Shown: positions 4,505 through 37,704 of the stretch, piece by piece | Layout: every line of letters begins with the position of its first letter | How positions within the stretch are numbered: the stretch's first letter is position 1 | Assembly (NCBI GenBank): GCA_003557725.1 | Contig: PWNQ01000012.1 | Location: forward strand, 1-44,671 | DNA length: 44,671 nucleotides | Origin: Bacteroidales bacterium | Lineage (GTDB): Bacteria; Bacteroidota; Bacteroidia; Bacteroidales; PWNQ01 | Reading direction: 5' to 3' | Position numbers and translations under genes: made by a program | The notes under the pieces: model-generated | What the model was told of the DNA's origin: nothing | Seen by the model: the letters and a program-made list of their open reading frames with translations, nothing else | Database searches by the model: none

Positions 4505-5304
4505 GTGAGTTGTTTCAATATGATTTCTTTATCAGGTCACTGGCTGGGGCGGTGTTTGCCGCCATTACCTGTGGCTTGACAGGAACCTATATTGTTAGCC
4601 GCCGAATGGTTTTTGTGTCCGGAGGGATAACGCATGCCTCATTTGGAGGGATTGGCATTGGGTATTTCCTGGGCATAAACCCGGTGATGGGGGCTGCGGT
4701 ATTCGGAGTGCTGGTAGCCCTGGGCATGGAGCGATTCTCCTACCGGGATATGGTTCGCCAGGACTCGCTCATCGCCATGTTATGGTCGCTGGGAATGGCT
4801 GTGGGCGTTATTTTTATCTATATCACACCAGGATATGCCCCCAATTTGCTTACTTACCTGTTTGGAAGTATATTGACCATCACTACCACAGACCTGCTTT
4901 TACTGGGCGGTCTTTCCTTGATTAGTATTCTGATATTCATTCTGTTCTACAATACCATACTGATGGTTTCTTTTGATGAGGGCTTTGCTGAGACTCGAAG
5001 CATGCCAGTAAAGGGAATAAAAAGCATGATGATCATTTTGGTGGCACTGACCATTGTGTTTAATATCCGCATTGTGGGCATAATAATGGTGCTTGCGTTG
5101 TTGACTGTTCCGCAAGCCATAGCCAATTTATTTACCAGCAATTACAAACACATGCTTATTTATTCCGTTTTGTCCGGCATGGCAGGAACCCTCTCAGGGC
5201 TGGCAGCATCCTGGTATCTGAATATCCCTTCAGGGGCCACTATTGTTTTTACCCTGGTGCTGATGTTCTCTATGGCAAAGCTGATCAAAAGTGTGACGGG
5301 CTAA
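4501..5304 (+). CDS. znuB: Metal ABC transporter permease (ZnuB/MntB family)
   Basis: Multi-spanning protein with GTYIVSRRMVFVSGGITHASFGGIGIGYFLG motif; ATGA overlap with znuC. Confidence 0.9.
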   Translation: MSELFQYDFFIRSLAGAVFAAITCGLTGTYIVSRRMVFVSGGITHASFGGIGIGYFLGINPVMGAAVFGVLVALGMERFSYRDMVRQDSLIAMLWSLGMAVGVIFIYITPGYAPNLLTYLFGSILTITTTDLLLLGGLSLISILIFILFYNTILMVSFDEGFAETRSMPVKGIKSMMIILVALTIVFNIRIVGIIMVLALLTVPQAIANLFTSNYKHMLIYSVLSGMAGTLSGLAASWYLNIPSGATIVFTLVLMFSMAKLIKSVTG

Positions 5305-5894
5305 TGGTCGTGATCATGGTCATGGTCATGGTCATGATGCTCATCATGGTAGATCCCCGCTTCTTCATAGGTTTTGTTTATGGTTCCTCTGGGATGTTCG
5401 GGTGGCCCGTAGATGGTATACAGCTTCAGTTTGCTGTCGCCCACATTTTTTATGGTGTGCCAGTATCCTGCAGGGATAAGTACGGCCCAGTCATCTGATA
5501 CTTTTTTATCAAAGTCAAGGTTCTCTTCTGTGAGGCCCATCATTACCCTGGCTTTTCCTTTCTCAACCCTTATAAACTGGTCATGTCCCCGGTGTACTTC
5601 CAGGTCAATAATTTCACCTGGCTCCAGTGTCATTAGCACCAGTTGCATATAGTCGCCTGTCCATATGCTTTGGCGGTAATTTTTGTTGGAGAGGGTGGCC
5701 TTTTCCACATCCACCACGTAAGGAATGGGGCCTCTGTCGTCAAGGTTCAAAGGGTCGGGTGTTTTCATCTCTTTTTTGTCTGGCTTTTCTCCTTCAGCGG
5801 GGGCCTGGTCATTACAGGCTACAAAGGCCATCATTACAGCAGCCGCAGTTAATGAAACAAGGGCTCCTTTCAAAAATAATGCATTTTTTCTCAT
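5301..5894 (-). CDS. Cupin-domain lipoprotein with C-terminal His/Asp-rich tail
   Basis: MRKNALFLKGALVSLTAAAVMMAFVACND lipobox-like start; cupin core (QLVLMTLEPGEIIDLEVHRGHDQFIRVEKGKARVMMG...VLIPAGYWHTIKNVG); tail HDEHHDHDHDHDHDH. The track start 5942 is probably upstream of the real one. Confidence 0.82.
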   Translation of the reverse strand: MRKNALFLKGALVSLTAAAVMMAFVACNDQAPAEGEKPDKKEMKTPDPLNLDDRGPIPYVVDVEKATLSNKNYRQSIWTGDYMQLVLMTLEPGEIIDLEVHRGHDQFIRVEKGKARVMMGLTEENLDFDKKVSDDWAVLIPAGYWHTIKNVGDSKLKLYTIYGPPEHPRGTINKTYEEAGIYHDEHHDHDHDHDHDH

Positions 5895-5912: not shown

Positions 5913-5983
5913 TGAGAGTAGTCTAAAGCACCATGCGTTCACAATGGGTAGAAATCAGATGCAATTTATTTAGACCGGACTCA
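5913..5983. repeat. MITE-like inverted-repeat element, copy 1 (71 bp)
   Basis: TGAGAGTAGTCTAAA...TTTAGACCGGACTCA; related along its length to 35531..35602. Confidence 0.6.
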
Positions 5984-6066
5984 TCATAGATTAACGAATT
6001 TATTTTGTTTTAAATTGATAAACAAGCCATCTGTGGATTTGTTCACACCTGGGAGGTGGGTTGAGC

Positions 6067-15660: not shown

Positions 15661-16188
15661 TTACTGGTTGAAATTGTGGTTTTGCGTCGGTTGAGAGTGG
15701 TTGCTATAGTTTCCGTTGGGGTTGCCATTGTTGGTTCGCTGAAGTGAAGAGATCAGTGCTCCCATCATCTTGGACAGTTCAATGAGTTGTCCTCGTGAAT
15801 CTTCATAAGCTTCTTCTCCCAGGTATCCAAAACGGTGTGCGATGGTGGTAAGCACTACACATTCTCTGATACAGCTTTTGGACAATTTCAGGTGATAAAT
15901 AAATTGGCTTTTTGTCCGCCCTGACCCTTCTGCAATTCGAATGGCAATAGACTGGGAGGCATTGCGGAAACGAGCGGCCAGGCCGTCGTCATCCAGCTCA
16001 GGAAATAACCTGGTGGTATCATGAACCCACTGAGTATAGGTTAACACCTTCTCGTACAAGCGCAAATCTTCAAAGCGAAAAAAACTAAAATTCCGCTCTT
16101 CGCGAGGTTGCTGCTCCTGATCGCCCTGGGGTTGCTGCTCCTGGTCTTCCATTGGCTCTCTTTGCTCTTCTTCTCTCATGTTAAACAT
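15661..16188 (-). CDS. Four helix bundle protein (S23/IVS-like) with N-terminal Gln/Glu-rich repeats
   Basis: FEDLRLYEKVLTYTQWVHDTTRLFPELDDDGLAARFRNASQSIAIRIAEGSGRTKSQFIYHLKLSKSCIRECVVLTTIAHRFGYL matches the four-helix bundle (IVS-encoded-like) family; repeat DQEQQPQGDQEQQPREE. Confidence 0.83.
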   Translation of the reverse strand: MFNMREEEQREPMEDQEQQPQGDQEQQPREERNFSFFRFEDLRLYEKVLTYTQWVHDTTRLFPELDDDGLAARFRNASQSIAIRIAEGSGRTKSQFIYHLKLSKSCIRECVVLTTIAHRFGYLGEEAYEDSRGQLIELSKMMGALISSLQRTNNGNPNGNYSNHSQPTQNHNFNQ

Positions 16189-21192: not shown

Positions 21193-21324
21193 AAGTGTAG
21201 ATACGCTGGATGCAACGTCTCTTTTAATAATTTCAAAAAGCATGGAGAGCCCGGGGCAAAGAGCCCATGACAATCAAAAATAACCTTTTTATACAGGACT
21301 CTATGTTGGTTCATAAAAAAATAT

Positions 21325-35508: not shown

Positions 35509-35530
35509 TAATAAAAACTTTTTATAATAA

Positions 35531-35602
35531 TGAGTCCGGTCTAAAAACACACATTTTTCACATCCGCTGAAAATCAAAAGTAATCTTTTTAGATTGGACT
35601 CA
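35531..35602. repeat. MITE-like inverted-repeat element, copy 2 (72 bp), with possible ATAA target-site duplication
   Basis: TGAGTCCGGTCTAAA...TTTAGATTGGACTCA (13/15 terminal inverted repeat); flanked by ATAA on both sides; similar to 5913..5983. Confidence 0.65.
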
Positions 35603-35619
35603 ATAATATACCATGTGCT

Positions 35620-37704
35620 ATGAGCTCCTTTACTCTTTCTTTAGTCGTGTGCTGCTGTTTGTTATCCTTTGTTTCCCAAACAGGTAACGCCCAGGAGGCA
35701 CAACTCCCTCCGGTTATTCGGGATATTATGGAAGATTATGCCCGTGAAGAGGAGGGAGATATGGATTATGCTCAGCTGGTGGATGAGCTGTTGTACCGGA
35801 TGGATGAGCCCTTAAACCTTAATGCGGCCAGGCGGGAAGACTTTCGGTATTTTATTTTCCTTAATAACCTACAGGTGGAGGATATACTGCGTATTCGCCG
35901 CCGTTTGGGGGGCTTTAATAATCTTTTTCAGCTCCAGTTGGTGCCGTCACTCACCAATCCGGAGATACAAACCCTTGGCCATTTTGCAGTTACAGAGCCC
36001 GTTGAGGAGCCGGTGTCTGGAAAGCTGAGACGGTCGTTGCGCCATGGGCGCCATGATTTGTTTTTGAGATACGAGCGTACCTTAGAAGAACAGCAAGGTT
36101 ATAAGCCGGCCACGGAAGAAATGCTGAAAGCCAGCCCCAACAGCCGGTATCTGGGAAACCCGGATAAGTATTATCTGCGCTACTCCTACCGCAGCCAAAA
36201 TATCCGCTGGGGTATCAATGCGGAAAAAGACCCCGGTGAGGAGTTTTTTTCCGGATATCAAAAACAGGGATTCGACTTTTACTCCGCCTATTTGATGCTG
36301 GAGGGCTTGTCATGGGCGGATGCGCTGGTGTTGGGGGACTTTACCATGCAGGCAGGACAGGGACTTGCCTTATGGTCCGGGATGTCTTTTGGACAGGGCG
36401 CTCAGGCCGTCTCAGTGAAAAAGAACGCTGTCGGCCTGCGACCAAGCACATCCATGAATGAATATGGATTCCTTAGAGGAGCCGCCCTTACCAAAAGGCT
36501 GGGGAGAATTACCACCACCGTGTTTTATTCCCTGGCGCCGCGTGATGCAAATATAGGCGAGCAGGACTCTGCAGGAAATATTTTGTATGTCCGCTCTATA
36601 CAAAAAACCGGCCTGCATAATACGGTCTCTTTGGCAGAAAATAAACACGCCATTACGGAGCAGCTGGCAGGAGGAAACATTACGGCAAGGTTCAACCGAC
36701 TGAAGGTGGGCATTACCGCAACCCATTACAGCCTGAGTGCTCCGCTAATACCTAACAAACAGCTTTATGCCAAATATCGCTTTTCCGGTGACCAAAGGGC
36801 TGTGGGCAGTGTGGATTATGAATACAACCGTAGGAATGTGATTATCTTTGGCGAAACGGGCTACTCAGATAACGGCGGCTGGGGTACGCTCAACGGGATA
36901 ACTTTCAAGCCAGCCGGAGGCGTGTATATGAGCATTCTGCACAGATATTACAGTATGGATTTTCAGAATGTTAAAGGGGGTGCTTTAGGGAGCAACTCAG
37001 CTAATCAGAATGAAAAAGGGCTCTATGCAGGGGTGCAGGCCCAACTGGGCGCAAAGGTGACCCTGAATGCCTATGCCGACCATTACCAATATCCCTGGCT
37101 AAACTTCCGGGTGGATGCCCCTTCCCGGGGAAGGCAGTACCGTATTCAGGTAGACTACGACGCCGGAAGAAGGTGGAGCGCATATATAAGGGGCTTTAAC
37201 CAAATCACTGCCCAAAACCTTAGCTCCGCACAGGTGAAAATCAACCAACCCGTCTCCAGAAACAGAAAAGGAGGACGCATACATTTTTCCTGGAAAGCCT
37301 CCTCCTGGCTGAAAATGAACAGCCAGGCTCAATGGAGCCGGGTAACCTTGTCCGACGGACAACCAGATAAAGGATGGCTTATATATCAGGATGTGTTAGT
37401 CAGACCCCACGGCCACCCGCTAAACCTCTCTTTCCGGTATGCTGTCTTCAATACCGACTCCTATGATGCCCGATTGTTTGCCTATGAACATGACGTGCTT
37501 TATGCCTTCTCAATTCCCGCTTACTTCTATCAGGGAATCAGGGCTTATATGGTGGTACGCTACAAAATTACCAGGAACCTGCAGGTATGGATAAGGGTGG
37601 CAAGAACACGGTATACCCACCGGGACCACGCAGGAAGCGGATTGAATCGCATTGATATGCCTCATAAAACAGATGTGAAAGCGCAGATCAGAATGCGGTT
37701 TTAG
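35620..37704 (+). CDS. Helix-hairpin-helix domain-containing putative outer-membrane protein
   Basis: LNLNAARREDFRYFIFLNNLQVEDILRIRRRLGGFNNLFQLQLVPSLT HHH repeats after a signal peptide, followed by long beta-barrel-like sequence ending in an aromatic residue (RMRF). Confidence 0.8.
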   Translation: MSSFTLSLVVCCCLLSFVSQTGNAQEAQLPPVIRDIMEDYAREEEGDMDYAQLVDELLYRMDEPLNLNAARREDFRYFIFLNNLQVEDILRIRRRLGGFNNLFQLQLVPSLTNPEIQTLGHFAVTEPVEEPVSGKLRRSLRHGRHDLFLRYERTLEEQQGYKPATEEMLKASPNSRYLGNPDKYYLRYSYRSQNIRWGINAEKDPGEEFFSGYQKQGFDFYSAYLMLEGLSWADALVLGDFTMQAGQGLALWSGMSFGQGAQAVSVKKNAVGLRPSTSMNEYGFLRGAALTKRLGRITTTVFYSLAPRDANIGEQDSAGNILYVRSIQKTGLHNTVSLAENKHAITEQLAGGNITARFNRLKVGITATHYSLSAPLIPNKQLYAKYRFSGDQRAVGSVDYEYNRRNVIIFGETGYSDNGGWGTLNGITFKPAGGVYMSILHRYYSMDFQNVKGGALGSNSANQNEKGLYAGVQAQLGAKVTLNAYADHYQYPWLNFRVDAPSRGRQYRIQVDYDAGRRWSAYIRGFNQITAQNLSSAQVKINQPVSRNRKGGRIHFSWKASSWLKMNSQAQWSRVTLSDGQPDKGWLIYQDVLVRPHGHPLNLSFRYAVFNTDSYDARLFAYEHDVLYAFSIPAYFYQGIRAYMVVRYKITRNLQVWIRVARTRYTHRDHAGSGLNRIDMPHKTDVKAQIRMRF

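Follow-up and report, generated by a model that had tools for sequence, protein, structure and literature searches.

Comparison with described MITE families

In kind, the closest described relatives of the repeat family analysed here are the Porphyromonas gingivalis MITEs with IS5-type ends (PMC4596501) and MITEAba12 (PMC6382973). The former comprise BrickBuilt, MITEPgRS/464, MITE239 and MITE700, whose IS5-family terminal inverted repeats (TIRs), either GAGACCTTTGCA-like or beginning with ACGTCA, are matched by the resident ISPg1/3/4/9, and which occur in about 10–20 copies per version with target site duplications (TSDs) of inconsistent length (PMC4596501). MITEAba12 from Acinetobacter/Moraxellaceae is a single family of near-fixed length (111–114 bp), present in many genomes of one family (PMC6382973).

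We analysed the window, the whole stretch of 44,671 nucleotides, together with the genome to which it belongs (G000; 2.82 Mb in 236 contigs). Our comparison reveals that the present family, which is from the same order as the P. gingivalis MITEs, resembles them in being gene-less and intergenic, in its short TIRs starting with GAG, in its internal repeats and in making up about 1% of the genome (PMC4596501). By comparison, it differs in its TIR, GAGTCCGGTCTAAAA, in its 6-bp A-N4-T TSD and in its copy number, which runs to hundreds; the P. gingivalis MITEs have a matching resident IS, whereas none is known for the present family. It does not belong among the IS5/ISPg-related MITEs, as its TIR differs from their GAGACCTTTGCA-type TIRs (PMC4596501). 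The likeness to MITEAba12 lies in the near-fixed length and in the duplication, kept in about 40% of MITEAba12 copies and in a similar share here; MITEAba12 differs in its known mobilising IS (ISAba12), its 9-bp TSD, its copy number of no more than tens per genome and its one interior type (PMC6382973). A literature search with the TIR string returned only one unrelated Arabidopsis paper. MITEs are a known kind of element, but the family itself appears to be undescribed. We read positions 5914–5982 of the window as an old, decayed copy of this family of non-autonomous DNA transposons (MITEs), with a probability of about 0.93.

Ends and target site

The element runs GAGTCCGGTCTAAA...TTTAGACCGGACTC and, as expected of a MITE, carries the TIR GAGTCCGGTCTAAA(AA), 14–16 bp in length, on both ends; the outer T and A are instead part of the duplicated 6-bp target, A-N4-T. 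Among 103 distinct paired elements from the window's genome and other genomes, 50 are flanked by an exact 6-bp TSD against 1.8 expected, and duplications of 4, 5, 7 and 8 bp differ little, if at all, from background, so that the TSD has the fixed length typical of MITEs. The target consensus is strongly conserved, with A in 66/70 and T in 64/70 sites. Where the outer bases are not T and A, they match the far flank (TTGATT, TTTATT, ATTTAA, AAATAA and ATAATA), and an exact 6-bp match is found in 6/21 of the elements with such aberrant bases against 0.64 expected. Since GAG...CTC ends together with a 6-bp duplication explain the aberrant end bases, the outer T and A are target DNA. An early reading with TGAG...CTCA ends and 4-bp duplications, under which the flanks showed a strong preference for A at −5 and T at +5, was dropped in favour of the 6-bp model, which accounts for the aberrant ends. 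Of the ends proposed in the sequence-only reading, the repeat itself therefore stands but its delimitation does not: the terminal T and A are part of the 6-bp target duplication, and the boundary and target site are corrected from TG...CA ends to a 6-bp A-N4-T target.

The ends also bear on the question of whether these are REP/REPIN-type repeats, that is, palindromic, RAYT-linked repeats without a TSD, moved by RAYT (IS200/IS605-like TnpA-REP). The high copy number, the intergenic placement and the palindromic interiors of the longer, 151-bp form would fit such repeats. However, duplications with fixed TIRs are not expected of RAYT-driven REP insertion, and the clear 6-bp TSDs and the 14–16-bp TIRs place the family outside this class and make such an origin exceedingly improbable.

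Two size forms

Two size forms dominate in the window's genome, one of ~70 bp (GAG...CTC) and one of ~151 bp; both are short and contain no ORF, in line with the non-coding nature of MITEs. The 151-bp form corresponds to the 70-bp form plus 81 bp that have a direct copy of CCGCTGAAAATCA on each side; this extra segment holds further inverted copies of the CCGCTGAAAATCA block. The short form may have arisen from the long one by deletion, or the long form may have been made by the addition of an insert. Both forms are found in the genus-mates G001 and G002, and the split between them is therefore older than the species. The median identity to the own consensus is 0.98 for long copies (n=12) and 0.93 for short copies (n=34), and this closer match suggests that the long form has been active more recently. 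Several contigs of the assembly end within long copies. In G002, a 440-bp element (L191, 823–1262) with the family TIRs and a near-perfect duplication contains an extra interior insert of ~290 bp.

Abundance and intergenic placement

The 15-mer TIR TGAGTCCGGTCTAAA, allowing ≤2 mismatches, occurs 254 times in the whole genome, compared with 6 occurrences of a control pattern, the same 15-mer reversed but not complemented. Element statistics were obtained from a 451-kb genome sample and from individual loci. A profile search of these 451 kb detected 39 elements, ~one per 12 kb, which extrapolates to ~240 copies in the genome; the multiple dispersed copies of a MITE family are thus observed both as TIR ends and as whole elements. 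The 39 elements overlap predicted ORFs over 21% of their length, where 91% would be expected; no value below 72% was obtained in 2000 randomisations. A MITE family with precise ends accounts for hundreds of intergenic repeats and for several contig breaks in the group. The sequence-only reading had stood to fall if further copies and a conserved core in relatives were lacking; the genome holds hundreds of copies, and the TIR recurs in other Bacteroidales.

In the genus-mate G001, whose DNA is ~69% identical, 686 kb contained only about six copies; the family has therefore expanded in the lineage of the window. Three collinear intergenic regions were found in G001, one of which is 74 bp shorter opposite a G000 element (248 vs 174 bp); this is as expected of an empty site, and the poor alignment of ~70% identical DNA makes it a weak indication of one.

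Copies in the window

The copies of the family in the window and the features next to them are as follows.

5301..5894, − strand: cupin-domain lipoprotein gene, neighbour of copy 1 (PF07883, E=2e-11)
5914..5982, + strand: MITE copy 1, 70-bp type, decayed (exact right TIR, 69% identity, shuffles, nhmmer)
~21248..21301, + strand: MITE copy 3, 151-bp type, truncated to its right part (nhmmer, E=1e-3)
35526..35531, + strand: left 6-bp target site duplication of copy 2, AATAAT (sequence, 6-bp TSD model)
35532..35601, + strand: MITE copy 2, 70-bp type, well preserved (nhmmer, E=2e-24)
35602..35607, + strand: right 6-bp target site duplication of copy 2, AATAAT (sequence, 6-bp TSD model)
35620..37704, + strand: neighbour gene of copy 2, starting 18 bp from it (weak helix-hairpin-helix match)

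Copy 2 is identical to the consensus at 68/70 positions, and its TSD is perfect (AATAAT/AATAAT). Copy 3 runs from CCGGGGCAAAGAGCC... to the right TIR TTTATACAGGACTC; the TIR has few mismatches, and the interior block is that of the 151-bp form. It is located 60 bp upstream of a tRNA gene. Elsewhere in the window, a collagen-like Gly-Pro-Val repeat region with repeats spaced 27/36/45 bp lies at the window start (11–382), and positions 15661–16188 encode a four-helix-bundle protein of the 23S rRNA intervening-sequence type (PF05635).

The inverted repeat that the sequence-only reading had placed at 5913–5983 is present there, and copy 1 itself extends over 69 bp (5914–5982) rather than the 71 bp originally bounded. 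Its left TIR is GAGAGTAGTCTAAA and its right TIR is TTTAGACCGGACTC; the left end, TGAGAGTAGTCTAAA, differs from the consensus TIR at 4 positions, and the flanks, AGTAAT on the left and ATCATA on the right, form no target duplication. The duplication has thus been lost. With this loss and an eroded left TIR, copy 1 is probably immobile now. As had been reported, its right end, TTTAGACCGGACTCAT (5969–5984), and the left end of the copy at 35531 are exact reverse complements over 16/16 nucleotides, a match of TIR against TIR. The homology of the two copies likewise holds, in the same orientation (+), both aligning with the family consensus.

The eroded left TIR, the missing duplication and a profile match of only E=0.01 (nhmmer, profile from clean copies, 451-kb sample) would be compatible with copy 1 alone being an inverted repeat that arose by chance and has no relation to the family. 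Against this, its right TIR is exact over 15 bp, and over 16/16 including the next base, and the TIR spacing is correct to within one base. In addition, 48/70 positions (69%) are identical to the 70-bp consensus in the + orientation, and the interior scores higher against the family consensus, in the matching orientation, than 1000/1000 shuffles. We therefore consider a chance repeat very improbable and retain the reading of copy 1 as a decayed member of the MITE family.

The left end of copy 1 lies 19 bp upstream of the ATG (5894) of the cupin lipoprotein gene, in agreement with the position upstream of this start given earlier, and copy 1 is thus in the leader/promoter region of the gene, whose translation shows an N-terminal lipobox-like MAFVACN. 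A sigma-70-type scan, which does not cover Bacteroidota promoters, revealed no promoter on the cupin gene strand at copy 1. Any influence of copy 1 on the cupin promoter or leader would be incidental.

Folding and base pairing

The sequence-only reading had also suggested a conserved regulatory or RNA element. Such an element could be a structured RNA before genes, for instance a leader or an attenuator, with the inverted repeat as the RNA stem. Consistent with this, the elements are intergenic and often upstream of genes, and copy 2 (z −5.8) and the 151-bp form, with its strong hairpins (z −8.3), fold far better than shuffles. However, hairpins arise from the inverted repeats of any MITE, and the fold of copy 1 on the + strand is poor (z −0.9). 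The TIR pairs of 25 seventy-bp copies show 61 single-sided changes compared with one compensatory change, and base pairing is therefore not what is maintained. Covariance-model searches assigned the element to no Rfam family, the matches in the window being two tRNAs only. Furthermore, the genes flanking the elements are diverse, with most copies located away from conserved genes; the elements have target duplications, and one is absent from a collinear region of the genus-mate. With TIR changes that do not compensate each other, and with copy 1 a decayed relic, the suggestion of an RNA element is not upheld, and we judge it highly unlikely.

Proposed mobilisation and search for the transposase

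Our preferred reading is a new MITE superfamily, whose movement we infer to depend on a DDE transposase that acts in trans and recognises the GAGTCCGG ends. In the proposed mechanism, the gene-less units of 70 or 151 bp, bounded by the 14–16-bp TIRs GAGTCCGGTCTAAA(AA), would be recognised through these TIRs by a DDE-type transposase supplied in trans. The transposase would excise or copy the unit, which would be inserted between genes at A+T-rich sites that have A-N4-T as their core, and insertion would duplicate the 6-bp A-N4-T target. The sequence-only reading had proposed a MITE from an undescribed IS. Its first part is borne out by the copies, TIRs, TSDs, non-coding nature and intergenic placement, and by the presence of the TIR on unrelated interiors, while the link to an IS is one that we infer.

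The exact ends provide an exact query for the missing transposase. In G000 and its relatives, no transposase gene flanked by the family TIRs was found with PF00665, PF01609 and PF14294 after the flanks of all matches had been read; the rve (PF00665), DDE_Tnp_1 (PF01609) and DUF4372 (PF14294) transposases of the TIR-bearing genomes have other ends. Similarly, TIR pairs 240–4000 bp apart with duplications included no transposon containing a transposase. Among the families tried, the only transposase found in G000 is that of an IS1634-family IS (G000:C148, L083 117–2173; NF033559), which has 17-bp perfect TIRs, CTAGCGTGAGTTTATTA, at both ends. These share the TGAGT...TAAA look of the MITE ends but differ from GAGTCCGGTCTAAA, so that a partnership with the MITE is not supported and derivation of the MITE from this resident IS was rejected. 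At G000:C148, the IS adjoins a MITE-like fragment.

Many contig ends in Acetofilamentum and three other genomes have, after the TIR, a conserved subterminal sequence of ~105 bp; these are probably the ends of a longer multi-copy element that collapsed in assembly. A short conserved reading frame occurs on the reverse strand of this sequence. Walks inward from the candidate long-element ends in Acetofilamentum and others stopped at contig breaks, and the extension of a candidate end in L138 belonged to a different repeat and was discarded.

Distribution in Bacteroidales

Of 393 genomes of the order, 19, spread over 14 family-level groups, contain the exact 17-mer TIR TGAGTCCGGTCTAAAAA, against a single hit for the control; it is absent from all ~380 genomes that represent other orders of the class. 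The elements in other Bacteroidales are 66–193 bp long and have the TIR and the 6-bp duplications in common, while their interiors are mostly different; in one 154-bp element of another family (G131, L126), the interior resembles the long form. Tentatively, and at rather less than even odds, the TIR GAGTCCGGTCTAAAAA and the 6-bp A-N4-T duplication may mark an undescribed IS group confined to Bacteroidales, whose repeated capture of unrelated DNA would have given rise to independent MITE families, with expansion to ~240 copies in the present species; the multi-copy ends GAGTCCGGTMTAAAAACTCYCTCTTTTTTTAAGCTCGTATAAATGCG... of Acetofilamentum and its relatives would then be the ends of the autonomous element. 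Ends common to unrelated interiors in about 14 family-level groups would allow tests of MITE origin and of horizontal spread.

Plasmid and phage collections yielded no match to the family at distant-blastn sensitivity. On the viral contig IMGVR_UViG_3300000234_000106 (6082–6098), an end with the superfamily TIR directly follows a terminase-like phage gene, and a phage of this kind is a possible vehicle for spread. In addition, the interior of an element end at G251:C199 (L122/L196) contains a repeat of the TCATTGCGA...GAAGCAATCTC type, which suggests the capture of another repeat by this element.
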